A stretch of DNA of 46,122 bases from a virus, in the IMG/VR virus record IMGVR_UViG_3300034071_003006, positions 1-46,122 of that record; one strand, 5' to 3'. Below the pieces are notes generated by a model that worked only from the letters and a program-made list of their open reading frames with translations, did not search any database and was not told the origin of the DNA. Shown here piece after piece: positions 7,313 to 34,237 of the stretch; within the stretch, counting starts at the first letter, position 1, and the number at the start of each line of letters is the position of its first letter. A program made the position numbers and the translations under genes.

Positions 7313-7648
7313 ATGTTGACCAGACGAGACAAAGACCTGCTGCGTGCCGTTCTCACATTGACCAATGCCAAGGTCAACCCTGGAGTCCGAACTGTCGGGA
7401 GGCTGCTGACTCCTCCTCTCCAGCATTCACAAGCAGCCAAAGAACTGAACCGACTGGTCGAGCGAGGTATCTTGATTCGGGAGGAGAGGACTCTCGGACA
7501 GGGCTCGTCGTTCCGGCTCTCCAGAGAGGCATTGGCAATGATCCAAGCCTCCGGAGTTGTTGCCTCGAAGCCGACTCCAGCCTTCGCCGCAAATCTGGTT
7601 GTTGTTGACGAGGACCATGAGCGATCAAAGTTGTCTGAGCAGAACTGA
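7313..7648 (+). CDS. Winged-helix DNA-binding protein beside repeat array A
   Basis: A 111-aa protein starting MLTRRDKDLLRAVLTL with a strong GGAGGT site before the ATG. It has the outline of a LexA/MarR-like winged helix: an N-terminal helix (KDLLRAV), a turn helix (TVGRLL), a recognition region (QHSQAAKELNRLVERG) and a basic wing (REERTLGQGSSFRLS). It is the only plus-strand gene among the minus-strand late genes. Its last codons run into the first copy of the GATCAAAGTTG array (7623). The location suggests it binds that array, regulates the late genes, or both. Family assignment is by pattern; the ligand is a guess. Confidence 0.6.
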   Translation: MLTRRDKDLLRAVLTLTNAKVNPGVRTVGRLLTPPLQHSQAAKELNRLVERGILIREERTLGQGSSFRLSREALAMIQASGVVASKPTPAFAANLVVVDEDHERSKLSEQN

Positions 7649-8247
7649 ACAGCGATCAAAGTTGTCTGACAAAAGCCGACCGACGATCAAAACTGCGTGA
7701 GCAGAACTGACTGGACTGGCGATCAAAGTTGTCTCGGCAGAGCTGAACTGGACCAGACCGACGATCAAAGTTGTCTCGCAAAAACTGACCGACGATCAAA
7801 GTTGGGTGACCAGAGTTGACCCGACCAGACTGGACGATCAAAGTTGTCTCCCAAAAACCGAACAGCGATCAAAGTTGTCTCAGTAGAGCTGACTGGACCA
7901 GACTGAACGATCAAAGTTGGATTACAAAAGCCGCCAGACGATCAAAGTTGTCGCGGCAGAGCTGACCTGGTCCAGCGACCAAAACTGCATGACCAGAGCC
8001 GAGCCGAGCAGCGATCAAAACTGCGTGAGCAGAGCCGACTGGCGATCTAACGTTGCGTTACAAAAGCCGACCAGCGATCAAAGTTGTCTCGACAGAGTTG
8101 AACAGACCAGACTGGACGATCAAAGTTGTCTCAGTAGAGTTGACCAGACCAGACTGGACGATCAAAGTTGCGTGACCGGAGCTGACCGACGATCAAAGTT
8201 GCGTCACAAAAGCCGATGGACGATCAAAGTTGGCTGAGCAGAGTTGA
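7623..8247 (+). repeat. Repeat array A: 18 copies of a GATCAAAGTTG element
   Basis: Copies begin at 7623, 7654, 7685, 7721, 7763, 7794, 7836, 7867, 7909, 7940, 7977, 8013, 8044, 8076, 8118, 8160, 8191 and 8222. Distances are 31, 31, 36, 42, 31, 42, 31, 42, 31, 37, 36, 31, 32, 42, 42, 31 and 31. Each unit is the 11-mer, a 15-nt looser part like TCTGAGCAGAACTGA, then a spacer of 5, 10-11 or 16 nt; the long spacer resembles CTGGACCAGACTGGAC. Variants are GATCAAAACTG (7685, 8013), GACCAAAACTG (7977) and GATCTAACGTTG (8044). The array fills the gap between the convergent ends of the winged-helix gene and the portal gene. Short frames across it change register and are not genes. Confidence 0.95.
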
Positions 8248-8260
8248 GCTGCAATCGAGG

Positions 8261-11200
8261 CTAGTCCTCCTCGACCACAAACTCCGGACCAGCGAACTCA
8301 GTAGCGGCGCCTTCGTAGGTGTAGACATAAATGCAGCGGCAGACATTCCCGTAAGGTCCGAGCCTGGACAGGCAGTTGTAGAGCGGAGGCCTGTTCTGAA
8401 TGTAGGCTGCAGAGCCGAACACGAAATCGCGCCCGTCCAGAGCTCGGCAGTTTGGACAGGTCAGACGATCCATGATTGCCGAGTAGCGAGCCGATACAAT
8501 CTTCGGAGCCTCCAGCCTGGCGGTCTCCTCTCTGGTGAGATTCGAGACTGTCGTAGAGGCCTGCAGCGATTGTTTCTCCCAAGTAGCAACCGGAGGCTCG
8601 AGAGCAGCAATCGCTGTCACAGTTCCGAGTCCGGTTGCCTGGACAAGAGCAGCGTCTCGGAGCCGCTTTGACCAGTCGGCATCGAGGACTCTGGCGAGAG
8701 ACTCGGCTTGCGAATCAACGATGGACTGGAGTTCGGCAGGGAAGGTTTCGAGGTCCTCGGTAGAGGTCCAGTCCGAACCGACTTGAGCTCGGACTTCAGA
8801 CAGAAGGTCCTTGCGATTCGTCTCCGACCAACTGGTCAAGAACTCGACAAACACCTTCTTGAACTCCTCGACCTTCGAGAACTCCAGAGCGGCAATCCCT
8901 GCCACGTCTCCAGCCTCAACCAACGGCTTGACCTTCCGAATGAACTCTCTCCGAGCATCCTCTGCGAGTTTGCTGGCGAAGACTGCCAGAGCCTTCGACT
9001 CGCGCTCGGTTGCAGCGTAGAGCGAAGCCCACGACACACAGTGCTCCGGCCCGACCAAGTCTCGGTGAGTCTGGAATCGTTGGCCGTCTCTACCGTAGAC
9101 CTCCAGCAACGGCTTCCGAGCCGCGAGTTGAGCTCCAGACCTCTCCCGAACCTTGTTGAACTCTGCGACCTTTCGCTCCGACCAAGTCTTGCCTGGATCG
9201 CCGCCCCAAAGGTCCCAAGCGATACGGCCTGCAGACGGGAAGCCGTCTTCACCTACCTCGTAGCCTTCTGCCTTCGAGTCGCTGGCGTGCCGATCAAAAT
9301 ATGCCTTCATCCGGCGAACTGTCTTCTCGGAGAGGTTGCGCCTGTTGGCAATGTCTCTTGCCCTGGCCACGCCTACCTCTGTACCGCCTCTGCCAAACTC
9401 CTTGCGCCACTCCAGAGCACGCTTGGCAATCTTCGCCATGCCGGAGGTCGGCTTGGTTTCGACTTGCTCCAGAGTCTTTGACCGGACTCTCTGCGAGAGG
9501 AACGAGTCGACAACTGCTCCTCCACCGACGAGACCTCCCTCGGTCGGCAGGTCTGCTGGAGACACCGCTTCGTTGTCCACCGACTCGGTGAGAGCGTCAA
9601 CGACCTGGTCGGATACAGGCTTGCTGGAGGACTGGTCGACAGCCTTGTCAACTGCTCGCTCATCTGTCGCTTCAGAGTCAGAAGTGTATTCCACTCCGAC
9701 CAGATTCGAGAGGCTGCGGAGGTCGTCTTCACTGTAGACTGGAGTGCCGTCCGGCTTGACCATCGCCCGAATCTCAGCGACTCCTCTCCAGACAGAAATG
9801 ACCTCGGTGTCAGACCGAGTCATGATGCCGTCGATTCTGAGCTCAGGCAAAACTGCGAGGTCTCCGACCAGAGTAGCACAGGCTGCCTCGATCCAGTTCC
9901 GACGGGAGGACCGGACCTGCTGAGCGTATCCTTGCAACTGCCGGAGCCTCTCCTGTTGCTGGACCTCCATGAGATTGTATGAGCCTCCGCTCTGCCCGAT
10001 CTCTGTTGCCAGAGCACCGAGACTCCGGAGCAACTCCTTGTCAAAATATTCCATTGCCGCGATGAATCCGGTGTCGGAGTCGAACTCGAGCATCTCCATC
10101 GCTACGCCTGGAGGCAGCGACAGGTACGCTTGGCCACTGTAGAAAAACTCTTTGGCAGCAGAGGCAATCGAGTCGCTGACTCCCTTCGCCTTGGCTGAGT
10201 CGGCATCCATTTTGAAGAGCGGGAAGCCGTTGCCCCACTTGCGCCTGTGCATGAGCGCGGAGACGAACCATTCGGTCTTGCCCTGCGAGGCATACCATGC
10301 CGCTCGGAGGTCGGAGACTCCCTCAAGGTTGAGTCCGATTCGCTGGTTCGAGACCAGCAGCAGCTTCCGAGAGTCGATGACAGGCATTCCCTGGACAGAG
10401 ACTCCAGAGACAGGAATGTCAGCGAGGAGGCCTGGAGAGCCGCTGGCGTTCTGGACCACACCACACCACCTCTCTCGCTGGTCCCAAAGCCAACGGAGAA
10501 CTGAGGACTGAGCTCGGTGCTCGACAAAGGTTGTCCGGCGACGACCCTGCAGCCGTGGGTCAATGCCGAACTCATGCAGGACAAAGCCTGGCACCATAGC
10601 GTAGGACTGCTCCCGAATAATCTGCTGCGGGTCGAGGTCGGGATTGTGATACCATTCGAGATTGAGGACCTCTGCGGCTCGGTCTGTGGCCTCGCGCATC
10701 TGAGCAGCAATCTTGGCTCTGAGCTCTGGAGAGACTCCGTTTGTGGCGACCAGAGCCTCGAAATCAACATCCGGCGTGGCGTAGAACTCGCTTGCTTGGG
10801 CGATACGCTCTACCGTGGCTCGGACTGCGTTACGAGCGACAGGATTCGAGCGAACCATCCGCTCGAACTCGCCTTGGTCATAGGCAAGACCTCGAGCCAG
10901 CAGAGGCTTGAGCTGCTGCTTGTTCTCGACCTGCGGCAGACCTCCAGCAGTGACTGTTCCAGAGAGGCCCTGCTTTGTCGGCAGGTCTGCTACCTCGGCA
11001 ACGAGTGTCAGATACTTGTCCTGCGATACGGTCCGACTCCGGAGCGCAATCGGCTCTCCAGCCGTACGGACTAGAATACGCTCAGACGGCAGGTCGTCTC
11101 GGTCTCTCCGAGTCGGATCTCTGAACAGTCTGGAGTCATCGACTCGACTGGCATAGTCCTCGAGATTGAAACCAGATCCGACTCGACCAGACCGGACTGG

Positions 11201-11308
11201 AGCGGGAGGAGGAGTCTGCAAAAACTCCAGAGCCTTCCGCCTGGCGCGGTCTATGGTCGATGCCGTGAACCTTGCAGCCGCTTCTCTCGCCTTGTCGATG
11301 CCGTCCAT
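8261..11308 (-). CDS. Portal protein fused to MuF-like head morphogenesis domain
   Basis: A 1015-aa protein. Residues about 140-540 look like a Mu gp29/DUF935-type portal (REQSYAMVPGFVLHEFGID, then MHRRKWGNGFPLFKMD and a helical stretch near 440-480). Residues 541-620 are a low-complexity acidic/Ser linker. Residues 623-715 hold a separate domain (RGGTEVGVARARDIANRRNL then PSAGRIAWDLWGGD) seen in assorted phage head proteins. The last 250 residues end in a MuF/SPP1 gp7-like module with TCPNCRALDGRDF and a C-rich PYGNVCRCIYVY end. Normally portal and MuF are separate genes. The portal forms the dodecameric DNA gate; MuF proteins are minor capsid proteins. ATG at 11308, preceded by GGAGT. Confidence 0.8.
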   Translation of the reverse strand: MDGIDKAREAAARFTASTIDRARRKALEFLQTPPPAPVRSGRVGSGFNLEDYASRVDDSRLFRDPTRRDRDDLPSERILVRTAGEPIALRSRTVSQDKYLTLVAEVADLPTKQGLSGTVTAGGLPQVENKQQLKPLLARGLAYDQGEFERMVRSNPVARNAVRATVERIAQASEFYATPDVDFEALVATNGVSPELRAKIAAQMREATDRAAEVLNLEWYHNPDLDPQQIIREQSYAMVPGFVLHEFGIDPRLQGRRRTTFVEHRAQSSVLRWLWDQRERWCGVVQNASGSPGLLADIPVSGVSVQGMPVIDSRKLLLVSNQRIGLNLEGVSDLRAAWYASQGKTEWFVSALMHRRKWGNGFPLFKMDADSAKAKGVSDSIASAAKEFFYSGQAYLSLPPGVAMEMLEFDSDTGFIAAMEYFDKELLRSLGALATEIGQSGGSYNLMEVQQQERLRQLQGYAQQVRSSRRNWIEAACATLVGDLAVLPELRIDGIMTRSDTEVISVWRGVAEIRAMVKPDGTPVYSEDDLRSLSNLVGVEYTSDSEATDERAVDKAVDQSSSKPVSDQVVDALTESVDNEAVSPADLPTEGGLVGGGAVVDSFLSQRVRSKTLEQVETKPTSGMAKIAKRALEWRKEFGRGGTEVGVARARDIANRRNLSEKTVRRMKAYFDRHASDSKAEGYEVGEDGFPSAGRIAWDLWGGDPGKTWSERKVAEFNKVRERSGAQLAARKPLLEVYGRDGQRFQTHRDLVGPEHCVSWASLYAATERESKALAVFASKLAEDARREFIRKVKPLVEAGDVAGIAALEFSKVEEFKKVFVEFLTSWSETNRKDLLSEVRAQVGSDWTSTEDLETFPAELQSIVDSQAESLARVLDADWSKRLRDAALVQATGLGTVTAIAALEPPVATWEKQSLQASTTVSNLTREETARLEAPKIVSARYSAIMDRLTCPNCRALDGRDFVFGSAAYIQNRPPLYNCLSRLGPYGNVCRCIYVYTYEGAATEFAGPEFVVEED

Positions 11309-11400: not shown

Positions 11401-11703
11401 GCGGCAGTCATTCCAGCTCAATGACTCCAGCCACAATGACTGCCGCTTCAGATGACGATAAGTCTGAGGCATCCAGACAACCACAATGACTGCCGCTTCA
11501 AATGACAGCAAGTCCGAGGCCTCTGAACGGTCATGATGCCTGCCGCTTCAAATGACAGCCAGTCTGGATCATCGGAGCAGTCGGTATGCCTGCCGCTTCA
11601 AATGACGGGAAGCTCAAGGCATCCAAACGGTCACCATGACTGCCGCTTCAAATGACAGTCTGTCTGATGCTGCTGGTCTGGAGTCCAGTCCGAGCGGCAG
11701 TCA
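11401..11703. repeat. Five-copy 50-bp tandem repeat with inverted half-copies at each end
   Basis: Copies start at 11436, 11486, 11536, 11586 and 11636, exactly 50 bp apart. The best conserved part reads ATGACTGCCGCTTCAAATGA, with ATGCC in copies 3 and 4; the other half is looser (AAGTCNGAGGCATC). GCGGCAGTCAT at 11401-11411 is the perfect reverse complement of the start of copy 1. AGCGGCAGTCA at 11693-11703 mirrors copy 5 and overlaps the terL stop. The 392-bp gap between terL and portal holds little else. The period is not a multiple of three, so it is not coding. Candidates are replication iterons, a packaging site or a binding array. Confidence 0.9.
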
Positions 11704-13227
11704 GAGACCTCCTCTCGTCGTCCATGTCCGGAGTGTCGGAACTCCGAGGTTGAAAGACGGGTCGAGGAGTCTCTCGACAGAGCCGGAGATGACCGGAGCA
11801 TCCGACACCTTGGCACCGAGAACATGAGGCAGAGCATACCGAGCTCCATGAACCAGAGCATCGATTCGCCCTGGTGACCAGCGACGAGAGCCTCTCGGTG
11901 GATCGGGGTCCCAAGACACCATCTCGTCCTCCAGCCCGTCAAAGCGGCCAACGTGATGAACAAAACCCTTCCGATACAGGTTCGCGACAGGCACAGCCCT
12001 GGACGCTTTGTCTCCGATTGCGTCTACAAGGACGACCGGCACTCTGGAGTCCACGGAGTTCAGAGTGACTCGGACCATGTCTCCGCCTTGGTTCTTCTCG
12101 GCCACGATGCAGCCTGCTCCGAGAGTCCAGAACAGTTCAACTGCTTTCTTGGCCCAATCGGCAGGCCCCATTCGACCAGACTCGTCAGCGAGGACAAACA
12201 ACTGCCCACTGGAGGCCCCGACTGCTACGATGCCAGCCTCGTCGCTGGTGTCGGCTCCAGACAGTGACGGGTCGACTGCAACGCAGAGTCTGTCGAGAAT
12301 GGGCTGCTCAAGGACTCTGTTCCGATCGATGTCGTCTGAGCTCCAGAGTGCTCCAGCCACATCATCGACAAACTCTCCGAGCAGGAACCGAGACCTGCGC
12401 CGACTGTCCATCGCCGCGAGCTCAGACAGATAGTCTGGAGACAGCAACGGGTTGTCAGTCGGGTTGACCTGGCAGGCGAGATACCAGTCTCGGTTGAGCA
12501 GAGGACCTCCGAACGGGTTCTTGCCAAGCAGAAACTCCTGCGCTGTCCAGTGACGAGAGCCGGAGGGATTGAGGTCGTAGAACATACGGACTGCCATTCG
12601 GCCCCCGCTGTTCCTGTATGTGGGTCGCTGGGCAAGACGGGAGCGAATGAGCGGCACCACGCCCCACGGTATCTGCGAGCATTCGTTCAGATAGATTGTC
12701 GAGAACTCCATGCCGAGCAACTTCTCGACTCGTTCTTCGGAGTCCAGTCCGGAGAAATGTATCTCGCTCCCGTTCGGCAGACGAGCCACCGAGTCAGACT
12801 GGTTGAGCTCTACCTTCACAGTCGGGAACCGAGCCTGGAGGACCTCTTTGAAGGTTCCGAGCATCAGAGTCTTCCGAGCGGCATTGTGGTGCAACCGAGC
12901 AATCAGATGAGTTGACCTGGGCGCCAGCATAGCTCGGAGCAGTACGGAGTAGACAATCATGTATGTCTTGCCGGAGCGAGAGCCTCCGTACAGGAGCACA
13001 TGCCGAGGCTCTCTCTCGGCTATCTCGTCCCAAACTTGCAACTGCCTCTTGTTCCAGTCTGGAACAGTCGAACCAGTCACGTCTGTCTCGGCTAGTCCAG
13101 CCTTCGAGGAGAACGGAGGAACGATCAAAGTTGTCTGAGCAGAACTGCTGGAGCCTGGAGCAGCGATCAAAGTTGCGTGAGCAGAGCTGCTGCCGGAGGG
13201 AGTAGCGATCAAAGTTGGGTGAGGCAT
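11701..13227 (-). CDS. terL: Terminase large subunit
   Basis: ATPase-nuclease that pumps DNA into the prohead. The Walker A motif is GGSRSGKT and Walker B is TIYLNE. The C-terminal nuclease half contains CVAVDPSLSG, a likely first catalytic Asp. About 508 aa from the ATG at 13227, a normal size. The start is uncertain. From 13227 the first 50 or so residues are low complexity and read through three GATCAAAGTTG copies as in-frame TLI; a TTG at 13254 lies inside a fourth. A GTG start in front of TGSTVPDWNKRQ would drop the repeats. No strong ribosome binding site marks the ATG. The gene follows small terminase and array B. Confidence 0.9.
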   Translation of the reverse strand: MPHPTLIATPSGSSSAHATLIAAPGSSSSAQTTLIVPPFSSKAGLAETDVTGSTVPDWNKRQLQVWDEIAEREPRHVLLYGGSRSGKTYMIVYSVLLRAMLAPRSTHLIARLHHNAARKTLMLGTFKEVLQARFPTVKVELNQSDSVARLPNGSEIHFSGLDSEERVEKLLGMEFSTIYLNECSQIPWGVVPLIRSRLAQRPTYRNSGGRMAVRMFYDLNPSGSRHWTAQEFLLGKNPFGGPLLNRDWYLACQVNPTDNPLLSPDYLSELAAMDSRRRSRFLLGEFVDDVAGALWSSDDIDRNRVLEQPILDRLCVAVDPSLSGADTSDEAGIVAVGASSGQLFVLADESGRMGPADWAKKAVELFWTLGAGCIVAEKNQGGDMVRVTLNSVDSRVPVVLVDAIGDKASRAVPVANLYRKGFVHHVGRFDGLEDEMVSWDPDPPRGSRRWSPGRIDALVHGARYALPHVLGAKVSDAPVISGSVERLLDPSFNLGVPTLRTWTTRGGL

Positions 13228-13447
13228 CGGCTGGAGCCTGGATCGGGCGATCAAAGTTGGGTGACAAAAGCTGACTGACGATCAAAGTTGCGTGACAAAA
13301 GCCGACCAGTCTGGACTGGACGATCAAAGTTGGGTGAGCAGAACTGCCTGGTCCAGACTGGACGATCAAAGTTGGGTGACAAAAACCGAAAGACGATCAA
13401 AGTTGGGTGAGCAGAACTGACCAGCGATCAAAGTTGGGTGAGCAGAA
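13123..13447 (+). repeat. Repeat array B: 9 copies of the GATCAAAGTTG element
   Basis: Copies start at 13123, 13165, 13207, 13249, 13280, 13322, 13364, 13395 and 13426, with distances 42, 42, 42, 31, 42, 42, 31 and 31. Orientation is the same as array A. It fills the gap between small and large terminase genes and continues into the 5' end of terL. Inside the possible terL coding region the spacing is always 42 bp (14 codons), so the frame stays open; outside it the 31-bp step appears. Confidence 0.95.
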
Positions 13448-13448
13448 C

Positions 13449-13991
13449 TTATGTCTTCGATTGGGCGTAGGTGATGACGATCGGAATCTCTGCTCCGGCT
13501 TCCGACTGGAGTCCACCGAGAGACACCTTCTGAGTCGGGCTCTCGTCATACTCGTCTCGCAACTGACGGACTACGACCTCCAGAAACTTCGCCAAGTCGC
13601 TGGCCGAGGCCTTCGAGAAATCGACATTCGGGAGCTCAGAGCCAGCCTTTCGGAGAGCCGAGACAAGGACTGCTCTCCGGAGTTTGCGCGACTTGACTCT
13701 CTCGTCGGCCTCGGCTTCCGAGTCTCTCCGCTCGTTGTAGGTGTCCAGCGCAATCACTCGCTCGCGCCACTTGAAGCGGTGAAACCAGTCATACCAAATC
13801 GGATGGGCCTGCTCCGGAGGAGGTCCAGAGAGTCTCGATTTGATGAAAGCGCCACGGACAGACCTGTCCACTCGCGGCATGTCTCGGTAGGCAGCGAATG
13901 CTTCGTAGGCCTTCGGGCTCTCCTCCTTGAAGCGTTCCCACGGGTATGCTTCTTCATTCAATGGCGTGCAGAGTTTGAGCGGCTTGGACAT
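13449..13991 (-). CDS. terS: Terminase small subunit
   Basis: DNA-recognition subunit of the packaging motor. From the ATG at 13991 the protein is about 180 aa and begins MSKPLKLCTPLNEEAYPWER. The stretch ESPKAYEAFAAYRDM, then RSVRGAF and WYDWFHRFKWRERVIALD, matches the common phage pattern of an N-terminal helix-turn-helix followed by a W-R-RA-ayD helix. The C-terminal part is helical, as expected for ring assembly. The open frame extends upstream to 14228, but that part is Pro/Leu/Gln-rich and not protein-like. No strong Shine-Dalgarno site precedes the chosen ATG. The next gene is terL, past array B. Confidence 0.75.
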   Translation of the reverse strand: MSKPLKLCTPLNEEAYPWERFKEESPKAYEAFAAYRDMPRVDRSVRGAFIKSRLSGPPPEQAHPIWYDWFHRFKWRERVIALDTYNERRDSEAEADERVKSRKLRRAVLVSALRKAGSELPNVDFSKASASDLAKFLEVVVRQLRDEYDESPTQKVSLGGLQSEAGAEIPIVITYAQSKT

Positions 13992-14241
13992 TTGAGGCAC
14001 CGTGGGAGGAGGTCGAGAGGAGTAGGAGAGGACCTGCTGTCTCGGAGGTCCTGTGGTGTGTTCTGTCCACTGTAGAGGCAACAGCGTTGACCCGTCAAGC
14101 AGTCGGTCTGCAGTTGCCGAGCCTGGTTGAGCTGGAGCCAGCAACCGGCGAGGTAACAAATTTTGCCTATGGACAGCCTGCCTGGCACTGTGTATGTCTG
14201 ACGACAGGAGAGCTCGGCAACTCGGCATAGTCGTTTTGCTA

Positions 14242-14268
14242 CTAGTATCTAGTATCTAGTATCTAGTC
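14242..14268. repeat. CTAGTAT 7-bp tandem repeat
   Basis: CTAGTAT occurs three times in a row (14242, 14249, 14256), followed by a partial fourth copy (CTAGTC). On the minus strand it reads as repeated TACTAGA, resembling several overlapping -10 boxes for late transcription. It may also be a binding site or a slippage-prone tract. Confidence 0.8.
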
Positions 14269-14469
14269 TCTATCGTCCCGATCTTTGCTGCGCTCTCCAG
14301 TCCGTAGCAACCGAGACCTCTGGCCCGTCTAGGTCCAGAGTCGGTGAGCTCAGAAGAGGACCAGCAGCGAGAGGCTGGAGAGGCATCGGGGCTGCTCGGT
14401 CTGAGGACCTCGCTGCCCCTGGTCGGTTAGGCTCTGGAGGAGTCCGGCGAGGTTCAGTCTGGACGGAGT

Positions 14470-18184: not shown

Positions 18185-18433
18185 ATGAACACCTCAGCAA
18201 CAGTCACCGCCTATGAACTGCGCTGCGAGCCAGAGACTCTCCTCCGCGCAATCGAGACTCAGTGCGAAATCCTGCTGGACTCCGGTCGCTGCTTCGCCAC
18301 CGCAGTCACTTATCCGTTCAAGGACGAGCCGACGCGGATTGACCGCCTCACTACCTCGCTCCTGCTGGAGGTTGAGTCAGAGACTCTCACGGCAGAGCAG
18401 GCCCTCGACCTCGCTCTCGAAGCGTACCTGTAA
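18185..18433 (+). CDS. Small early protein, unknown
   Basis: An 82-aa acidic protein (MNTSATVTAYELRCEPETLL) with a full ACAAGGACAAGACC leader. Three Cys residues are spread through the first half (RCEPE, ETQCE, GRCFA); this is not a clear metal site. The C-terminal end is helical. Last of the small genes before the ATPase. Confidence 0.6.
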   Translation: MNTSATVTAYELRCEPETLLRAIETQCEILLDSGRCFATAVTYPFKDEPTRIDRLTTSLLLEVESETLTAEQALDLALEAYL

Positions 18434-18539
18434 CAAGGCAATCGCCTGGTCTCCAGCTCGGAGCGCAGCGAGGTTCAAGCCCTTGCGGAGACACTCCCAC
18501 AAACGGCCTGCATTGAGGCCAAGAACAAGGACAAGACAG

Positions 18540-19787
18540 ATGGACACCAGAGACAAGTTCAAGGCAGCAGAGCAGGACCTCCGGACTCACTTCAGAAAGC
18601 GAGACTCGGTCATCCGAGGCCTCTTCATCTCTGTCCTGGCGAGGCAGCACGCTGTCATCATCGGAGAGCCTGGAGACGGCAAGACGAAGCTCAGCACAGA
18701 CTTCTTTCGACTCTTCACCGACTCGCAGTTCGCGCACTTCGGACTCCACAAAGGTTCGACCTCAGATGACCTGTTCGGAGGTCCAGACATTGTGGCGCTC
18801 CAGAACGGCATCGACAAGAGAAACACCAAGGGCCGTTTGCTGGAGGTCAACTTCGCGTTGCTGGACGAGCCAGACAAGGCCTCAGAAGGCACGCTGAACT
18901 CGCTGCTGGTCCCTCTCTCTGACTTCGTATTCGAGACTGCTCCTCTGCCTCTGCAGTGCGCCGTCTACTGCGGCAACAACCTTCCGCATGAGCTCAGAGG
19001 TCAACGCAACGGCAAGCCTCTCCCTGTCCGGCAGGGCGAGGATTCTCTGCTCGCTTTCTTTGACCGCTTTGCTCTCAAGTTCGTGGTCGAGTCGATCGAG
19101 CCTGGCAACGAGGACTGGAGGTCGGTAGTGTTCCGGCGAATCACAGACACTCCGTACACCTCCAGTCTCTCCCTGGACGACCTTGCCAATGCGAGGGAGC
19201 AGGTGGCGAAGGTCCACATTCCGGAGTCGGTAGAGCAGTTCATCGAGGAGTTTGCTGGAGTCCTCCGCAGAGGCAACGGCAAGCCGAACTCCACAGTCAA
19301 GGTTTCGACTCGGCGTTGGGCCCAAGTGCCTGGTCTGCTCCGCGCAGCCGCTTGGCTCGAAGGTCGCGACGAGGTCTCGACGCAAGACACCTCGCTTCTC
19401 GTTGACATACTCTGGACGACTCCAGACCAGCGAAAGGCAATCCGAGAGGCTCTGCTCGATTGTGGCTCTCCGATCGTGAGAGACTGTGCAGCCACGATCG
19501 ACAAGGTAGCAGAGGCAGTTCTCGCTCTCAGTGAGAGGAGGCTCTCGACTGGAGCCGGAGCAGACGGCTACCACATTCACACCACGGCTGCAGAGGTCAA
19601 CCCGCGCCTGGCAGTCGGAGTCGCAGAGGTTCTGCTCCGCTTCATCGACAAGACTGGAGGTGACCTCCGCAACGCGATCACTCCAGACCTCTCTGCAGAC
19701 GACCTTGCAGCAGTCGAGGACTCTCTCCAGACTCTGCGCAACTTCCGAAAGCAGGTCCTCGAGGAGTTCCGAAAGCGTATCGCTTGA
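18540..19787 (+). CDS. MoxR-type AAA+ ATPase
   Basis: A 415-aa AAA+ ATPase of the MoxR/RavA type. Walker A is GEPGDGKT (residues 42-49), Walker B is ALLDEPDK (about 106-113), and the segment between them has the FGLHKGSTSDDLFGGPDI look of MoxR proteins. A sensor-like YCGNNLP follows. The C-terminal half (about 260-415) is helical with VKVSTRRWAQVPGLLRAAAW, the usual lid. MoxR ATPases remodel or load metal or protein partners, usually with a VWA protein encoded next door, as here (19843). ATG at 18540 after ACAAGGACAAGACAG. The target in the phage is unknown. Confidence 0.85.
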   Translation: MDTRDKFKAAEQDLRTHFRKRDSVIRGLFISVLARQHAVIIGEPGDGKTKLSTDFFRLFTDSQFAHFGLHKGSTSDDLFGGPDIVALQNGIDKRNTKGRLLEVNFALLDEPDKASEGTLNSLLVPLSDFVFETAPLPLQCAVYCGNNLPHELRGQRNGKPLPVRQGEDSLLAFFDRFALKFVVESIEPGNEDWRSVVFRRITDTPYTSSLSLDDLANAREQVAKVHIPESVEQFIEEFAGVLRRGNGKPNSTVKVSTRRWAQVPGLLRAAAWLEGRDEVSTQDTSLLVDILWTTPDQRKAIREALLDCGSPIVRDCAATIDKVAEAVLALSERRLSTGAGADGYHIHTTAAEVNPRLAVGVAEVLLRFIDKTGGDLRNAITPDLSADDLAAVEDSLQTLRNFRKQVLEEFRKRIA

Positions 19788-19790
19788 TTC

Positions 19791-19819
19791 TTTACAGGCT
19801 AGCGAACTTCGTCTAGTGT
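19791..19819 (+). promoter_or_regulatory. Promoter before VWA gene
   Basis: TTTACA (19791-19796), a 17-bp spacer and TAGTGT (19814-19819), between the ATPase stop (19787) and the VWA ATG (19843). It resembles the promoter at 14562 (TTTACT, 17 bp, TAGTAT). It would give VWA extra expression independent of the ATPase. Confidence 0.45.
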
Positions 19820-19842
19820 CGCCATTCCCAACATAGGACACC

Positions 19843-21411
19843 ATGAACAGGCTCTCAACACGCAGTCTCCGACTCCACCTGGAGGCATTTCACCGGAACA
19901 GATACGACCGGATTCGGTCGCAGTTTCCCGCTCTCCTCCAGATCGAGGAGGAGCTCGGACAGCGACTCGGAGATGCTGGAGGCTATCTTTCGAGAGACCT
20001 CTGGTCGTCATTCATTGACTCCAGTCTGCAAACTGTGGAGTCCAGCAGCGACTTTGCCGAGCCTCTCCAGAGGCTGAGCCGTTTCATCTTCGAGAGCCTG
20101 GAGAGCAGCGACGAGTTCAACACTCTCCGAGACCTCTCCAAAGGTTCGACCTTCGCTGCAATCGAGGCTACAGAGGCTGCTGCTGCTTTCATCAAGTCTC
20201 TCCCTTTGCCGGAGCCTCCGGAGGAGAGAGACACCACGACAGCCACTGGAGAGAACGGAGACTCGGTCTCTGTCTCCCAAGACGGCAGTTCGGTGAAGGT
20301 CGAGCAGACCAAAGGTGGTGTTCGGATGGACACCACGAAGCAGTTTGACTCAGAGAGCCAAGCGGCAGAGTTTGCGGCAAAGGTCCTCCAGCAAGCAGAG
20401 AGTCGAGGCCTGGACAAGAGGACCTCCGGACAGCGAGACCTCAAGTTCGAACAGGCTCTGTCCGAGGCTCTGGACAGCATCGAGAGCTCACCGACTGACA
20501 AGGCCTCTCTCAAGGCTGCAGCCAAAGCAGCAGTTCGGGCCACAGCAGCAAGCCTGGAGGAGCGAAAGCAGTTGCTGGTCACCACATTCGGAGAGGACGA
20601 GGCAGAGCGCATCTTTGAGGACCCGTCCAGAGAGGACCTTGAACTTGTGGAGTCTCTCTCCAGCGATCAGACCTTCAAGGCATTCATTCGGCAGGTCGGC
20701 CGCTTTCTGGAGTCGATTCGCTCGGCTTCGCTGCCAGAGAAAGTGCGCGGCTCTCTGGCGGTAGACGGCATCCAGAGCTCAAAGCGATTCTCAAACCTCC
20801 TGCCTTCCGAGAGAGTCCTGCTAGCGACTCCGGCTCTTCGAGCATACCAGACGAGTCGAGTGCTCTCCGGCAAGGCCTTCGGCTACCGCAGGAGCGAGGT
20901 CGGGAGTCGCCAGAGCGGGGAGTTCATGGTCGCCCTGGACACCAGTCACTCAATGAGCATCCACAATCGGAACTGGCCTGCTCCTGCAGCCTTCGCAGCA
21001 GCAAGCGCAATCTCTGCTTGCGACGAAGGCAGGACAGTCTGTGTTGCTGCTTTCTCGACTCACATCGAGGAGGTCGAGTTCGATGGACAGTCCGCGACTG
21101 GTCGGGCCTCGTTCCTGCGCAGGATGCTTTCTCTCCGGCCAAGTGGCGGCACAAGTTTCCGACCAGTCGTAGAGCGTGCAGACATTCTGTCTCCCTTCTC
21201 AGACCTGCTCATCATTTCAGACGGTGACGGACCTCTGGACGAGGAGAGGACTCGCGAGGTGTTCTCCAGTCGCTCGCTCGCCTACCTGGTCATCGGAGGA
21301 GAGAGTCAGCGCAATCAGACTCTGGCTGACATAGCGACTCCAGACAGAACACTCGTAGCAGACTCCCTCACTCCGGAGGCTGTCAATCTTGTAGCCTCCC
21401 TCACTCGATAG
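19843..21411 (+). CDS. VWA-domain partner of MoxR-type ATPase
   Basis: A 522-aa protein. The C-terminal 165 residues form a von Willebrand factor A domain with a complete metal-ion-dependent adhesion site: DTSHS (366-370), the Thr in GGTS (about 437) and the Asp in SDGDG (about 460). Residues 1-340 are helical and acidic, with a Gln/Glu/Ser-rich linker near 145-190. This is the layout of ViaA/CobT-like proteins that couple to MoxR ATPases; the N-terminal part probably contacts the ATPase. ATG after CATAGGACACC. Phages rarely carry this pair. Function in the phage life cycle is unknown. Confidence 0.85.
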   Translation: MNRLSTRSLRLHLEAFHRNRYDRIRSQFPALLQIEEELGQRLGDAGGYLSRDLWSSFIDSSLQTVESSSDFAEPLQRLSRFIFESLESSDEFNTLRDLSKGSTFAAIEATEAAAAFIKSLPLPEPPEERDTTTATGENGDSVSVSQDGSSVKVEQTKGGVRMDTTKQFDSESQAAEFAAKVLQQAESRGLDKRTSGQRDLKFEQALSEALDSIESSPTDKASLKAAAKAAVRATAASLEERKQLLVTTFGEDEAERIFEDPSREDLELVESLSSDQTFKAFIRQVGRFLESIRSASLPEKVRGSLAVDGIQSSKRFSNLLPSERVLLATPALRAYQTSRVLSGKAFGYRRSEVGSRQSGEFMVALDTSHSMSIHNRNWPAPAAFAAASAISACDEGRTVCVAAFSTHIEEVEFDGQSATGRASFLRRMLSLRPSGGTSFRPVVERADILSPFSDLLIISDGDGPLDEERTREVFSSRSLAYLVIGGESQRNQTLADIATPDRTLVADSLTPEAVNLVASLTR

Positions 21412-21419
21412 GCATCTAC

Positions 21420-21785
21420 ATGGCAAAGCAATCGTTCTCTCCTCCTCGCACACTAGCCGCTCGTCGGGCTCTCCTCGGAGTCCGTATGACAGACATGGGC
21501 GAGGCCTCTGGAATGTCAAAGCAGCAGTTGTCGCAAATCATCACAGAGAAACGGCAGGTCACTCTCCCGACTCTCCGCAGAGTCTCGATGCTACTCTACT
21601 GCCCCGTTGAGCTCCTCGTTGCAGACGATCCCTCTCCGGCTGTTCGGTTCCCGCTACCTCCAGCCAACTACCTGGAGACAATCAAGGCTAACAGAGACAG
21701 CCTCGGCTTCAACGACGCAGCCAAACTGCCGGATTGGGAAGCATTCGCTGAACTGGTCAACCGAGCAGCCACTCTCACACGCTAG
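21420..21785 (+). CDS. XRE-family HTH regulator
   Basis: A 121-aa protein with a lambda Cro/C1-type helix-turn-helix at about residues 12-65: TLAARRALLGVRMTDMGEAS then GMSKQQLSQIITEKRQVTLP, followed by TLRRVSMLLYC. The C-terminal 45 residues are a short tail. It starts 9 bp after the VWA stop, so it is probably co-transcribed. It could control the early operon or act as a lysogeny/lysis switch, but no integrase is present. No ligand domain. Confidence 0.7.
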   Translation: MAKQSFSPPRTLAARRALLGVRMTDMGEASGMSKQQLSQIITEKRQVTLPTLRRVSMLLYCPVELLVADDPSPAVRFPLPPANYLETIKANRDSLGFNDAAKLPDWEAFAELVNRAATLTR

Positions 21786-27218: not shown

Positions 27219-27388
27219 TGCCGATGGACATACAGACAGACGAACTGGAGGCTACCGAGTCAGACAGTTGGCAGCGACTGGCAATCTTGCTCGCCTCCAG
27301 ACTTGCGATCCGAACAGACCTGGACGATTCAGATTTGGGAGTCCTGCGCGACTTCTTTGTTGAGCTCCTGCAGAGGAGGACGCCATGA
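27215..27388 (+). CDS. Short protein between primase-helicase and C5 methyltransferase
   Basis: A 57-aa acidic helical protein (MMPMDIQTDELEATESDSWQ, ending ELLQRRTP). Its ATG overlaps the primase-helicase stop and its TGA overlaps the ATG of the methyltransferase (27385). An ACAAGGAGGACGA site precedes it. Function unknown. Confidence 0.65.
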   Translation: MMPMDIQTDELEATESDSWQRLAILLASRLAIRTDLDDSDLGVLRDFFVELLQRRTP

Positions 27389-28425
27389 GATACCTGTCTG
27401 TCTGCTCTGGCATCGAAGCGGCTTCCGTGGCCTGGAGAGGTCTTGACTGGACTCCAGTCGGAGTGTCAGAGATTGACCCGTTCGCCTGTGCTGTGCTGCA
27501 GCACCGTTTCCCTGCCGTTCAGAACTTCGGAGACCTAACCCGCCATGAGCAATGGACACTCAAGCCTGGAGCAGTTGACCTTCTTGTTGGAGGAACACCC
27601 TGCCAATCTTTCTCCGTTGCTGGTCTCCGAGCTGGAATGGCTGACCCGCGTGGCAACCTCGCTCTCACATTCTTGGCTCTCGCCGACAGACTTCGGCCGG
27701 AGTGGATTGTTTGGGAGAATGTTGCCGGAGTCCTGTCTTCGAACGGAGGACGGGACTTTGGTGCCTTTCTCGGCGCGCTGGGCAAACTCGGGTACGGGTT
27801 CGCCTACCGAGTGCTCGACGCACAATACTTCGGAGTCGCCCAGCGTCGTCGTCGAGTCTTTGTTGTCGCAAACGCTAGAGACTGGAGTCGTGCCGCCGCG
27901 GTTCTTTTTGAGCCCGAGAGCCTGCAACGGCATCCTCAGAAGAGCTCAGCAAAGGGACAAGGCTCTGCCTCCAGCACTGCACCGAGCTCTGACACAAGTT
28001 GTTTCTGGAACGGAGAGCAGGTGACGCAGACTCTCGATGCGGTCCTTGCAAAGAGACAGACAATGCCAGAGCGCAACCGCTTCCCTGCAGTTCTTGTTCC
28101 TCCTGTTGTGATTGACAGAGCAGCCTTCAATCAGGGAGTCGGGGCGCAATACGCACCTCGCATCGAAGCAAGCGAGACGATGAGTTCGCTTGTGGCTCGC
28201 GACCCTCACGCAGTTTCGGCTCCTCCTTCGTTTGCTGTTAGACGACTCACTCCAGTCGAGTGCGAGCGGCTGCAAGGATTCCCCGACGACTGGACCTCAG
28301 TGCCGCATCGTGGCAAGCCAGCAGCAGACGGACCCCGCTACAAGGCGATCGGCAACAGCATGGCTGTTCCGGTCATGCGGTGGATCGGAGAGCGCATCGC
28401 TGCTGTGGACGAGGTCACGCGATGA
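27385..28425 (+). CDS. DNA (cytosine-5) methyltransferase
   Basis: A 346-aa enzyme with the motifs of C5-cytosine methyltransferases in order: FxGxG-like SVCSGIEAAS near the N-terminus, PCQS with catalytic C73, ENV at 111-113, QRRRR at 153-157, and GNSMAV near the end. It moves a methyl group from SAM to C5 of cytosine. The target site cannot be read. The variable region before motif IX is about 110 residues. It may protect phage DNA or prepare cytosine for further modification (see glycosyltransferase cassette at 32.4-35.1 kb). Overlaps the neighbours by ATGA. Confidence 0.9.
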   Translation: MRYLSVCSGIEAASVAWRGLDWTPVGVSEIDPFACAVLQHRFPAVQNFGDLTRHEQWTLKPGAVDLLVGGTPCQSFSVAGLRAGMADPRGNLALTFLALADRLRPEWIVWENVAGVLSSNGGRDFGAFLGALGKLGYGFAYRVLDAQYFGVAQRRRRVFVVANARDWSRAAAVLFEPESLQRHPQKSSAKGQGSASSTAPSSDTSCFWNGEQVTQTLDAVLAKRQTMPERNRFPAVLVPPVVIDRAAFNQGVGAQYAPRIEASETMSSLVARDPHAVSAPPSFAVRRLTPVECERLQGFPDDWTSVPHRGKPAADGPRYKAIGNSMAVPVMRWIGERIAAVDEVTR

Positions 28426-28754
28426 CCTGGACAGAGCGCAAGATGACCATCGTCACTCGGACTGGACAGACTCTCACTCGGTCTCTGTTCCTGCAGACTC
28501 CAGTCGGAGAGCCTTCCGAGAGACTGGTCGTTGTTACAATCTCTCTCGGCTCTTGGCTGGAAACGGACTCCAGCCCGATCTCGTTCGAGACGGCAATCTT
28601 TGAGACAGACGAGACTCAACAGCCTATCTGGTTCGTCACAGTCGCAGAACGATACAGAACTGCCAGAGAGGCATTCGACGGCCACAATCGCTGGTGCCAG
28701 ATGCTTGACCAGCCTAGACAGATCAACAGGAAACAACAGGAGGACTCAGAATGA
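28422..28754 (+). CDS. Small protein between methyltransferase and PAPS-reductase genes
   Basis: A 110-aa protein that overlaps the methyltransferase stop by 4 bp (ATGA) and the next gene the same way. Mostly beta in the first 70 residues (TLTRSLFLQTPVGEP, RLVVVTISLG) and helical toward the end. An in-frame ATG lies seven codons later. Not recognised; co-translated with its neighbours. Confidence 0.6.
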   Translation: MTWTERKMTIVTRTGQTLTRSLFLQTPVGEPSERLVVVTISLGSWLETDSSPISFETAIFETDETQQPIWFVTVAERYRTAREAFDGHNRWCQMLDQPRQINRKQQEDSE

Positions 28755-29713
28755 ACGAAGTGAACTTCATCAATGTCAGTGGCGGCAAGGACTCAACAGC
28801 AGTCCTGCTTCTTGCTCTGGAAATGCAGCCTCCGAACATGCGCTTCGTGTTTGCAGACACGGGACACGAACACCCAGAGGTGTATCGGTATCTCGACTAC
28901 CTGGAACGAGAGCTCGGAGTCTCGATTGAAAGGCTGAGGAACGACTTTACAGACCGTCTTGCTCGACGGCGCAAGCGCATCGAAGAGACTTGGGAGGAGC
29001 CGGAGAGGTCCAGAGCATTGGAGGTCATGCACGCTACGGGCAACCCGTTTCTGGACCTTTGCTTGTGGAAAGGCATCTTTCCGTCAAACAGCATCCGTAT
29101 CTGCACACAGTTCTTGAAAGTTGAACCGATCAACAAAGTGCAGAACGAGGCTCTCGACAAAGCAGACAGGGTCGTGACCTGGCTTGGAATCAGAAAGGAC
29201 GAGAGTGCTTCGAGGTCCACGGCTGTGACTTGGGAGCGAGAGTTCGGTCCGGAGGACCAGCCCGATGCAGGTCTGTGGAAATACAGGCCAATACTTGACT
29301 GGACTGCTGCCGATGTGTTCGACTTCATCCACAAGAAAGGCCTCCAGTCAAACCCGCTTTACAGACAAGGCATGGGACGAGTCGGCTGCATGCCCTGCAT
29401 CATGGCAAGGAAATCAGAGATTGCAGAGATTGCGAACCGCTTTCCAGACGAGATCGACAGAGTCGAGCGTTGGGAGGCAATCGTCAACCAGAGCATTAGG
29501 AAGCAGAACGGCACCTTCATTGCCGCTAGCAGGTTCGGCTATGACAATCCGGACGACATAACATCTGCAACTCACGGAATCCGCAAAGCAGTGGAATGGG
29601 CGAAGACAAGCCGTGGAGGACGACAGTTCGGTCTGGACTTCGAAAGCGGTGGAGGTTGCTCCAGCATCTACGGTCTTTGCGAGACTGGAGACAACAAGGA
29701 GGACTCGGAATGA
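28751..29713 (+). CDS. PAPS-reductase/ATP-pyrophosphatase-family protein
   Basis: A 320-aa protein with a PP-loop (SGGKDS, residues 10-15) and a following FADTGHEHPE. The central part has IRICTQFLK and later GCMPCIMARK. This is the phosphoadenosine-phosphosulfate reductase family, which also includes DndC and tRNA thiolation enzymes. It may handle sulfur or adenylate DNA or RNA groups. It sits between a C5 methyltransferase and recombination genes. The phage homologues are common, but their substrate is unknown. Confidence 0.8.
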   Translation: MNEVNFINVSGGKDSTAVLLLALEMQPPNMRFVFADTGHEHPEVYRYLDYLERELGVSIERLRNDFTDRLARRRKRIEETWEEPERSRALEVMHATGNPFLDLCLWKGIFPSNSIRICTQFLKVEPINKVQNEALDKADRVVTWLGIRKDESASRSTAVTWEREFGPEDQPDAGLWKYRPILDWTAADVFDFIHKKGLQSNPLYRQGMGRVGCMPCIMARKSEIAEIANRFPDEIDRVERWEAIVNQSIRKQNGTFIAASRFGYDNPDDITSATHGIRKAVEWAKTSRGGRQFGLDFESGGGCSSIYGLCETGDNKEDSE

Positions 29714-29811
29714 CATACGAAACCGCGCAGGGAGTCGTAAAGTGCTGGTTGACAACTGAACTGTCCGGAGAGTCCGGAGAGTTGAACTGTTCGAAGATTT
29801 GGAACAGTTGA
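29710..29811 (+). CDS. Putative 33-aa leader or mini-protein
   Basis: ATG overlaps the TGA of the PAPS-reductase-like gene by four bases and is in the operon's coupling pattern. The product starts MTYETAQGVVKCWLTTELSG and ends just inside a palindrome (29781-29813). Could be a real small protein or a chance frame. Confidence 0.35.
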   Translation: MTYETAQGVVKCWLTTELSGESGELNCSKIWNS

Positions 29812-29813
29812 AC
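29781..29813. terminator. Palindrome at the end of the methyltransferase operon
   Basis: AACTGTTC (29785-29792) and GAACAGTT (29802-29809) form a perfect 8-bp stem with a 9-nt loop. One mismatch outside, the pairing continues for 3 bp. A direct repeat of GTCCGGAGA lies just before it. There is no following run of T, so it may be an attenuator, RNA processing site or operator rather than a plain terminator. Confidence 0.4.
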
Positions 29814-29880
29814 ACCAGCCTCTCACCTATCCGAACTGCTACCCGAACTGCTCCCCGACTACCTTCCCACAAGGACAACC

Positions 29881-30108
29881 ATGCTACACAAGATCGAAGC
29901 TCAAGTGTTCGCGACCTCTGCAGAGGCAATCGCTGCCTCCAGCAACCCAATGTTCACGCTGACTGCCGTTCACACCACAGATGCGAACTGGTCGCTCTTG
30001 TTCGAGCAGTGTCAGTCGATCCATCGTCTCACAGAGGACATCCGGTTGTTCATCGGTCTCGGCTGGTGTGTTCTCCTCCTGCCTCGAATCAAGAAGGTCC
30101 AGCCGTGA
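29881..30108 (+). CDS. Small early protein, unknown
   Basis: A 75-aa protein (MLHKIEAQVFATSAEAIAAS) with an ACAAGGACAACC leader. A hydrophobic segment near the end (FIGLGWCVLLLP) could be a short membrane segment or buried helix. The stop overlaps a GTG start of the next gene by GTGA. Confidence 0.55.
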   Translation: MLHKIEAQVFATSAEAIAASSNPMFTLTAVHTTDANWSLLFEQCQSIHRLTEDIRLFIGLGWCVLLLPRIKKVQP

Positions 30109-30602
30109 ACTTCATTGGCATTGACCCTGGCGGCTCCGGCGCGATCGCTGCTCTGGACTCCTCCGGACTGATCCTGTCTGTGGAGCGATTCTCGAAGGTC
30201 GAGGTCGAAGGCGGCATTGCGCTGCTTGTGGCCGACTTCGTTGAGAGGCTGCAAGGAGAGTCCAGTCTCGTCATCGAGAAGGTGTCCAGCAGGCCTGGAG
30301 AGGGAGTTGTGTCGTCGTTCTCGTTCGGGAGGTCCTACGGTGAGGCAATCGGAGCAGCCGTAGTGTCCAGATGCTTTGTCGAGAAGGTCTCACCACAAAG
30401 GTGGCAACGCGACTTTGAGCTCCTCCGGCAGAAAGGTTCTACGGAGTCAAAGACCGACCACAAGAGAGCCATCAAACAAGCGGCAGAGGCCCGATGGTCT
30501 CGTCGGTTTCTCAGAGAGGAGGCCGATGCCGTTTGGCTTGCAGAGTGGAGTCGGCTGTTCGGCTCTCGGAGATTGACTGGAGGTTGCGATGCCAGAGCAT
30601 AA
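30105..30602 (+). CDS. RuvC-like Holliday junction resolvase
   Basis: A 165-aa protein beginning MNFIGIDPGGSGAIAALDSS from a GTG at 30105. The RNase H-like core shows D7 (IGIDPG), E58 (LVIEKV) and a late acidic pair (EEADAVW, D141), matching the RuvC catalytic set. It should cut four-way junctions made during recombination before packaging. Size is normal (RuvC is about 170 aa). Confidence 0.8.
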   Translation: MNFIGIDPGGSGAIAALDSSGLILSVERFSKVEVEGGIALLVADFVERLQGESSLVIEKVSSRPGEGVVSSFSFGRSYGEAIGAAVVSRCFVEKVSPQRWQRDFELLRQKGSTESKTDHKRAIKQAAEARWSRRFLREEADAVWLAEWSRLFGSRRLTGGCDARA

Positions 30603-30873
30603 TCGGCTACAATCGTTGCTGCGGTCGGGCTGTGGGAAGCTCGGTTCTGGAAACGGAGAGGTCGCTCCTCGTGCTGTCCTTCGGGGAGCGACCTTCGCAC
30701 CTCTGGCAGTTGTCTTTCAGAAGAGCCTCCAGCCGCAGCCAACGAGCGACACTGCCCTGGCAATCTTCATACTGCTGTTCTTTGCCTATGTGGCAACGGT
30801 GCTGGTCGTTGAGTGGCTGAGACCTCCAGACAAGCAGACAGAGCCGGACAAGGACCAGAGGAGCAGCAAGTGA
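30589..30873 (+). CDS. Small membrane protein
   Basis: A 94-aa protein (MPEHNRLQSLLRSGCGKLGS) that overlaps the resolvase gene by 14 bp. A single membrane segment is clear (TALAIFILLFFAYVATVLVV), followed by a polar tail (RPPDKQTEPDKDQRSSK). Likely anchored in the inner membrane. Function unknown. Confidence 0.6.
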   Translation: MPEHNRLQSLLRSGCGKLGSGNGEVAPRAVLRGATFAPLAVVFQKSLQPQPTSDTALAIFILLFFAYVATVLVVEWLRPPDKQTEPDKDQRSSK

Positions 30874-31412
30874 CGGCTTATGTTGGCAGCAGAGTGATCG
30901 GAGGAGACAAGGATTGCTGGTCAACTCCGGAGTGGCTGATTGAATGGACGAAAGCAGAACTCGGCTGGAGTCAGTTCGACTTCGACCCTTGCGCGGCTCC
31001 GGACACAGCGAAGGCCTCCGACTACATTTCAGAAGAGACTGGAGACGGCCTCTCGCTGCCCTGGAGAGGACCAAGAGTGTGGATGAACCCGCCTTTCAGC
31101 AGGCAGAAGCGGTGGCTGTTCAAGGCCTCAAGAGAGTCCAGAGAGAACGGGATCAAGATTGCTGCTCTTGTCTTGCCTGCCTTCGATGCTGCCTATTGGC
31201 GACCAGCAGTTTGGGAGTCTGCGGCTGAGCTCTGGATGCTTGAAGGTCGTATCCCGTTCGAGCGAAACGGAGTGCCAGCATACAACTCGACCAGCAAATC
31301 ATGCATTGTGGTCTTTGACCAAGACCGCGCAAAAACGGCCCAAAATGAGCCGGTGACCCGTTTCCTGCGACCTCCCTACCCGCCACGCCTGGAGAGGCCT
31401 GTATGCCGCTAA
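30870..31412 (+). CDS. Phage DNA N6-adenine methyltransferase (Dam type)
   Basis: A 180-aa protein starting at a GTG overlapping the previous stop (GTGA). The pattern matches phage DNA N-6-adenine methyltransferases: DCWSTPEWLIEW, then FDFDPCAAPDTAKASDYIS, LSLPWRGPRVWMNPPFS. The catalytic NPPF motif is at residues 73-76. It methylates adenine in DNA. The target is not shown, but such Dam proteins often act on GATC. The GATC-bearing arrays of this phage are an interesting potential target. Confidence 0.85.
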   Translation: MTAYVGSRVIGGDKDCWSTPEWLIEWTKAELGWSQFDFDPCAAPDTAKASDYISEETGDGLSLPWRGPRVWMNPPFSRQKRWLFKASRESRENGIKIAALVLPAFDAAYWRPAVWESAAELWMLEGRIPFERNGVPAYNSTSKSCIVVFDQDRAKTAQNEPVTRFLRPPYPPRLERPVCR

Positions 31413-31546
31413 CATTCGCAATCCTTGCCCATGCTGACCTGCTCTTTGCAAAGAGAATCGTCCTCCAGACTGTTGACGTTTTGTTCGGTATCTTGTTCTT
31501 GGTCGGACTGGTCCTGATCTTGTCCATCTTCCGAGGTCCACGATGA
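31403..31546 (+). CDS. Small single-pass membrane protein
   Basis: A 47-aa protein (MPLTFAILAHADLLFAKRIV) overlapping the Dam gene by 10 bp and the next gene by 4 (ATGA at 31543). One membrane helix (VLFGILFLVGLVLILSIF) then a short basic end. Unknown role. Confidence 0.55.
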   Translation: MPLTFAILAHADLLFAKRIVLQTVDVLFGILFLVGLVLILSIFRGPR

Positions 31547-31854
31547 ACACTATTCCTACAACAGCAGAACTATCCGGACGCTTTGGCGGAACTTGGAGCC
31601 TCGGCTCAAACACATACTCTCGTCGCTGGGACGGAGTCGTCGACAGGTCGAAGATAACGCTTTGGCAAGAGCAAGACGGTGGAGGCTCGACTTTCGTCGC
31701 GGTCTCAATCTCAGACTCCAAGTTCAAAGTTTGCGAGATCGAAGGTCCAGACTGGACACAGGTTGTCGAGACCGCGCTTGAACTTGCGAGAATACATCAG
31801 TCTGACAAACGGGCCCTGTTCTCAACAGTAATGATCAACGAGGACCTCGAATGA
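31543..31854 (+). CDS. Small early protein, unknown
   Basis: A 103-aa protein (MNTIPTTAELSGRFGGTWSL) coupled to both neighbours by ATGA overlaps. Beta-rich in the middle (GGGSTFVAVSISDSKFKVCE), helical at the end. No known family. Confidence 0.6.
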   Translation: MNTIPTTAELSGRFGGTWSLGSNTYSRRWDGVVDRSKITLWQEQDGGGSTFVAVSISDSKFKVCEIEGPDWTQVVETALELARIHQSDKRALFSTVMINEDLE

Positions 31855-32231
31855 GGAGTTCGCGCAACTACCACGAATCAGAACAGGACTCCGTAAGAGT
31901 CAAGCACGCTCCGAACCCGAAGCGACCAGAGGCAATCGCCATGCGGAGGATCGTGGTCGAGACTGGCTGCTGGCTGTCTCCGTTCATGAAAGATGCTCCG
32001 CTGCCAGTCTTGACCGATTGGGAGCGTACCGTTGACCTCTCCAGACTGGCGAATGTCAACTACACGCCAGTTGATCCCGAAGAGTCAAAGGCTAGCAAAG
32101 AGCAGCGACTGAGGACTCCAGTTCGGCTTGGCATGGTTGTCCGGCAGGACAAGCAGATGCCTAGTCTCTCTGAGCTCCGCAAATCTCAGAACGAGATGAA
32201 CAGCAAGCGGAGCAAGAAGCGGCAGCGTTGA
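31851..32231 (+). CDS. Basic early protein, unknown
   Basis: A 126-aa protein (MRSSRNYHESEQDSVRVKHA) with many Arg and Lys and a very basic end (NSKRSKKRQR), which suggests nucleic acid binding. It is the last gene of the early plus-strand operon and ends just before repeat array C. Confidence 0.6.
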   Translation: MRSSRNYHESEQDSVRVKHAPNPKRPEAIAMRRIVVETGCWLSPFMKDAPLPVLTDWERTVDLSRLANVNYTPVDPEESKASKEQRLRTPVRLGMVVRQDKQMPSLSELRKSQNEMNSKRSKKRQR

Positions 32232-32245
32232 CCTCCTCCAGCCTG

Positions 32246-32371
32246 GTCAGTTCTGCTCAGACGACTTTGATCGCTGGTCACCTCTGGTCACGCAACTTTG
32301 ATCGTCTGTCGGCTTTTGCGAGACAACTTTGATCGTCTGTCGGCTTTTGCGAGACAACTTTGATCGTCTGT
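32246..32371 (-). repeat. Repeat array C: 4 copies of the GATCAAAGTTG element, inverted
   Basis: The element appears here in the opposite orientation to arrays A and B (CAACTTTGATC on plus). GATC positions are 32269, 32300, 32331 and 32362, all 31 bp apart. The last two units are identical over 31 bp, so one is a recent duplication. The array fills the gap between convergent genes (32231 and 32387). Confidence 0.95.
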
Positions 32372-32386
32372 CTGGAGGTCCTCCGG

Positions 32387-34202: not shown

Positions 34203-34237
34203 GATTGTCCTTGTTGTGCTGGAGGAGCGGGGAGCCG

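Follow-up and report, generated by a model that had tools for sequence, protein, structure and literature searches.

Tandem arrays of an asymmetric repeat at four gene seams of a phage genome: candidate binding sites for a protein

What role could be served by one short asymmetric repeat that recurs in tandem at several gene seams of a single virus, in steps that lie close to whole turns of the DNA helix? The window, meaning the whole stretch of DNA analysed here, is a virus record of 46,122 bases. The original prediction, made at array A, counted about 40 copies in four arrays and proposed that they be recomputed with a position-weight matrix. The count holds: in a scan of the 46-kb window with a matrix built from the repeat, 38 array units score 32-47 bits, far above the best score of 12.2 bits across ten shuffled genomes, and only one match outside the arrays exceeds 8 bits (17.8 bits). 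Two damaged units, one at 8044 with a 1-nt insertion within the core and one at 13207 with a degenerate tail, bring the total to 40. The exact 11-mer occurs 32 times in the window, always within the arrays and never outside them. Arrays B, C and D lie elsewhere in the window than the stretch originally described, and the four are arranged as follows.

7620-8247, + strand: array A, 18 units, core GATCAAAGTTG plus tail
13121-13452, + strand: array B, 9 units
32243-32372, - strand: array C, 4 units in 31-bp steps
35190-35517, - strand: array D, 9 units in steps of 31, 42 and 43 bp

The unit consists of (A/G)CGATCAAAGTTG, a core of 12 nt, and a 14-nt tail. Downstream of CGATCAAAGTTG, the tail contains a conserved T (+13), two conserved A residues (+18, +20) and a conserved G (+24), and it occurs as two alleles, GAGCAGAACTGA-like and GACAAAAGCCGA-like, which are both present in all arrays and often alternate. 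TTGATCG is found in nearly every unit, and GATC is not enriched outside the arrays (145 observed, 200 expected). Each array opens with a core and closes with a complete core-tail pair, which makes the core together with its tail the meaningful unit. The single site is asymmetric and 25-26 bp long in all, and variable linkers join one site to the next.

Per position, the core is about seven times more conserved than the tail. The mean pairwise diversity of the core is 0.06 and that of the tail 0.38 (permutation p 7e-5), and parsimony on the unit tree requires 6 changes at 11 core positions vs 55 at 14 tail positions. The distance from core to tail has remained fixed through these approximately 55 tail substitutions, which, together with the conservation of the core, is a sign of sequence-specific selection on the DNA. 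In the linkers of the 42-bp steps, an average of 57% of sites differ (75% for unrelated sequence), and nearly all linkers keep one of two lengths despite this divergence. Units are equally different within one array and between arrays, and the longest stretch common to two arrays is 31 bp, or one unit; the arrays are therefore not fresh copies of each other, and recent exchange between them has been limited. A core that stays fixed at four places while its neighbours drift is best explained by sequence-specific recognition. Function at the RNA level was considered and rejected: folding of both strands gave a single significant z-score, which came from linker palindromes, and neither a conserved RNA structure nor an Rfam family, the marks of a CRISPR or structured-RNA array, was found in the repeats.

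All four arrays are placed exactly in gene seams. Early genes occupy the + strand (14.5-32.2 kb) and late genes the - strand (32.4-46.1 kb and 0.5-14.2 kb), and the genes that border arrays A and B are these.

7313-7648, + strand: gene for a 111-aa predicted winged-helix protein, antisense within the late operon
8261-11308, - strand: portal gene, which ends at array A and has a Mu F-like C-terminal part
11701-13227, - strand: terL, with a likely ATG start at 13227-13225 inside the degenerate unit 13207
13449-14228, - strand: terS, matching the phrog_6299 terminase small subunit (E 9e-11)

The winged-helix gene (+) and the portal gene (-) run toward each other with array A between their stops; the last nine residues and the stop codon of the former fall in the first unit of the array. 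Array B separates terS (-) from terL (-) inside an operon that must be transcribed, array C is situated where the early (+) and late (-) gene blocks converge, and array D is found between the gene at 35639-36046 (-) and a methyltransferase-like gene at 34238-35170 (-). A simple scan detected no intrinsic terminator at the convergent seams of arrays A and C, and no promoter context was found for the arrays. Relative to the late mRNA, the GATCAAAG strand is antisense in arrays A and B and sense in arrays C and D. The arrays at 7.6-13.4 kb are oriented + and those at 32.3-35.5 kb are oriented -, with the replication genes between, and all four GATCAAAG strands point toward the early/replication block (14.5-32.2 kb). 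Polar replication or recombination elements could be laid out in this manner; however, with four arrays such an arrangement easily arises by chance, and an explanation of this kind has very little probability.

The surrounding genome shows further features. Four copies of CTAGTAT (window 14242-14272) occupy the divergent early/late region, a possible promoter or origin region, and genes for a MoxR-type ATPase and then a von Willebrand-domain protein (window 18213-21411) are part of the early block. DNA-modification genes (window 27385-34259) encode a C5 cytosine methylase, a Dam-type adenine methyltransferase, a TET-associated glycosyltransferase and a ParB-like protein; in many other phages, the last two also occur as a pair next to terminase genes. 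Some palindromic tetramers are strongly avoided in the window outside the arrays: TATA and TTAA are absent there, and AATT (7 vs 65 expected), ACGT (14 vs 83) and ATAT (5 vs 31) are rare.

Close relatives should carry the arrays under the original prediction, and at the two seams compared they do not. L026 and L106, whose TerL proteins are 84-86% identical to that of the window, have no array B, and the stop of terS there overlaps the start of terL; array B is missing from L028 as well. In L258 (same contig as L107), array A is missing, and 6 bp separate the end of the winged-helix ortholog from the portal stop. This empty seam of 6 bp identifies array A as an insertion at that position, and since close relatives are devoid of arrays A and B, the arrays are lineage-specific. 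L021, which is nearly identical to the window, carries array B unchanged. Between L021 and the window, array B has mutated less than terL; this was set aside as uninformative, the differences being clustered.

When related viral loci totalling 2.56 Mb were scanned with the matrix, one lone match appeared, in a coding region of L025. Three viral pattern scans recovered only the near-identical contig L021, the lone L025 match and unrelated pairs, and plasmids and named phages gave no match to the arrays. In a bacterial genome scan, three arrays hold the GATCAAAGTTG 11-mer (L022:7730-7940, 43-bp units; L023:375-425, 17-bp units; L024:263-385, 21-bp units). A link to transposon ends was rejected, no transposase being found beside these arrays, and they are judged coincidental because the pattern picks up every array of this sort in which the 11-mer is present by chance.

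Array B looks as if it had grown from the 5′ end of terL. The ancestral terL ATG at the terS stop reads ATA in the window, and the likely start adds an N-terminal extension of 14-aa repeats to TerL. Three terL-proximal units of the array lie in the TerL reading frame, and the terS stop codon comes from the last unit. The terS/terL seam of L106, a single native stretch, aligns with approximately one window unit, which suggests that the 5′ end of terL was probably the origin of the unit. At the same seam in L027 (2619-2703), 42 bp at the start of terL are exactly duplicated in frame, extending TerL by 14-residue repeats; this 42-bp unit was also considered as an inverted relative of the arrays and rejected, the similarity being weak (p 0.007-0.07 over several comparisons). 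A second, unrelated tandem array occurs between terL and the portal gene (window 11432-11658), with a 50-bp unit containing GACTGCCGCTTCARATGAC. It comprises approximately 4.5 copies in the window vs 8.6 in L021 and is absent from L026, L027 and L106.

The main rival explanation starts from this same history and is quite possible. The repeat would be a minisatellite without phage function, in which a stretch at the terL start was duplicated by slippage or unequal recombination and its copies were tolerated at other seams; the core would be conserved only because recombination and multiplication are open to units that keep it intact. The alignment of array B with the native L106 stretch, the L027 duplication and the nearest relatives without arrays all speak for it, and the 50-bp array of variable copy number makes it credible, that array being the one that differs in length between the window and L021 while array B is identical. 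However, the core has barely changed at four separate sites whose tails and linkers have strongly diverged, no shared block exceeds one unit, and slippage alone fails to explain the spread to four non-homologous seams.

As array B touches both terS and terL, the arrays might instead be packaging sites recognised by the small terminase subunit. Such a function is improbable. In P1 pac, where headful packaging begins, repeated GATC-containing hexamers lie at a single locus beside the terS genes, and here the TTGATCG word, together with a PF05869 Dam-type enzyme encoded at 30813-31412, would be in keeping with a site of that type. The phage has, however, not one site but four arrays, separated by up to 28 kb; those other than array B are not near terS, and relatives with similar terminases lack arrays.

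Steps of 31 or 42 bp, with occasional 36 or 37, had been read as a sign of selection for binding on one face of the helix. The values themselves are confirmed: among 36 steps, 31 bp occurs 18 times, 42 bp 13 times, 36 bp twice, and 37, 32 and 43 bp once each, which makes 31 of the 36 steps 31 or 42 bp and places 33 no more than 1 bp away from an integral number of 10.5-bp turns. In array A, steps of 31 and 42 are accompanied by 36, 37, 36 and 32; spacers of 6, 11-12 and 17 nt alternate, and the 42-bp units carry a CTGGACCAGACTGGAC-like linker, the longer linker that had been described there. The claimed alignment to helix turns is partly supported. The concentration on 31 and 42 is vastly improbable under the random model, a uniform spread over 28-45 bp, but this improbability should not be taken at face value because a unit that duplicates passes its step on; the steps have been copied by duplication and recombination, and the 36 are not independent events. 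Distinct length changes are few, roughly one of +11 in phase, three (+5, +6, +5) that are half a turn out, and two of +1. The helical-phase reading is weakened further because three consecutive 42-bp steps of array B lie within the TerL coding extension, where 42 bp corresponds to 14 codons. Linker lengths of 6, 11-12 and 17 also fit duplication of a block of approximately 5 bp (ACTGGC to ACTGGACTGGC). In favour of phasing, all five odd steps touch a variant-core unit vs 8 of the 31 regular steps (Fisher p 0.003). A need for intact sites in phase would produce this pattern, even if these variant-core units are partly related by descent and several belong to one related variant type. Helical phasing of the arrays is thus possible. 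It is doubtful that a phage protein, perhaps the winged-helix protein, polymerises on the arrays in helical register and forms local filaments that insulate gene blocks, as a new lineage-specific nucleoprotein system born from the start of a coding gene.

By gene position, the first candidate binder of the arrays is the 111-aa protein. It has no sequence match in Pfam, PHROGs, NCBIfam or PDB. Its AlphaFold model (mean pLDDT 73) shows the order helix-helix-helix-strand-strand-helix, and the predicted fold matches winged-helix DNA-binding proteins in the PDB (best E 5e-3, none <0.001), including MarR-type regulators and the centromere-binding protein of plasmid pNOB8. The L258 ortholog, 51% identical, argues against this candidate, as the matching seam of that phage, of which 5 kb is known, contains no array. 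Alternative candidates are a Cro-type protein (21420-21785) and host proteins.

The pNOB8 match, the presence of the ParB-like gene between arrays C and D and the 31/42-bp steps, which recall tandem partition sites, could also suggest a partition centromere of an extrachromosomal prophage, with the ParB-like or the winged-helix protein as adaptor. Tandem partition centromeres consist of direct repeats near whole helical turns at a single locus beside par genes. Here there are four loci, and among the proteins scanned there is no ParA or ParM-type partner, the CbiA/ParA match falling in a DnaB-like helicase, nor an integrase or lysogeny module. Moreover, in phages without a detected array, members of the ParB-like family (phrog_620) are found paired with the TAGT glycosyltransferase, close to terminase genes. 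A centromere is therefore a most unlikely identity for these arrays.

The preferred explanation, to which a probability of roughly 0.4 is assigned, is that the arrays are clustered sites for a sequence-specific DNA-binding protein. From an origin at the 5′ end of terL, the unit would have spread to other late-operon seams. A phage protein may cover each array cooperatively, and the covered array could act as a road-block or insulator to transcription at its seam; array B, within an operon, would need to be leaky or passive. The seam placement and the absence of terminators at arrays A and C support the binding-site reading, as does the predicted winged-helix fold of the candidate protein. The absence of array B from the closest relatives counts against it, as does the absence of a promoter context, and a stoperator-like road-block is further opposed by the position of array B in a transcribed operon and by an orientation to transcription that is not constant. 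If a phage protein does bind them, the arrays would offer a natural experiment on how cooperative binding depends on spacing and core strength. The origin of the repeat can also be studied, because relatives with empty seams show the insertion sites and suggest a birthplace at the terL start.

Among known systems, the stoperators of Cluster A mycobacteriophages (L5, TipsytheTRex) are 13-mers that are oriented with transcription, are bound by the immunity repressor and lose function when reversed (PMC9283540). Both they and the present repeats are short asymmetric sites with more than 20 copies in intergenic spaces of one phage genome, here as 40 units at four seams. In contrast to stoperators, at which the bound repressor halts elongation, the units form tandem arrays with fixed steps, and arrays A and B are antisense and arrays C and D sense to the late strand. 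Dispersed repeat families exist in several phage groups, and one paper calls the function unknown: the 17-bp repeats of Cluster O mycobacteriophages (Corndog) occur in more than 30 copies, many of them intergenic (PMC4351075). The present arrays share this high copy number of one conserved, largely intergenic word, but the Cluster O repeats are palindromic, spread singly over the whole genome, located in coding regions for one-third and common to all five members, whereas the core described here is asymmetric and confined to four arrays. The SAS/ESAS of Cluster K mycobacteriophages, a non-palindromic repeat of approximately 13 bp, is likewise found in gene seams (PMC3203893). SAS lies 3-7 bp before start codons and includes a ribosome-binding motif, whereas the present repeats are tandem and mostly at 3′ ends, with arrays A and C at convergent 3′ ends and no AGGAG in the consensus. 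The arrays resemble stoperators, SAS/ESAS and Cluster O repeats in layout, and each of these systems has a defining, testable feature that they lack. By analogy, they are best read as lineage-specific protein-binding arrays, stoperator- or Cluster O-like in layout and possibly serving as road-blocks.
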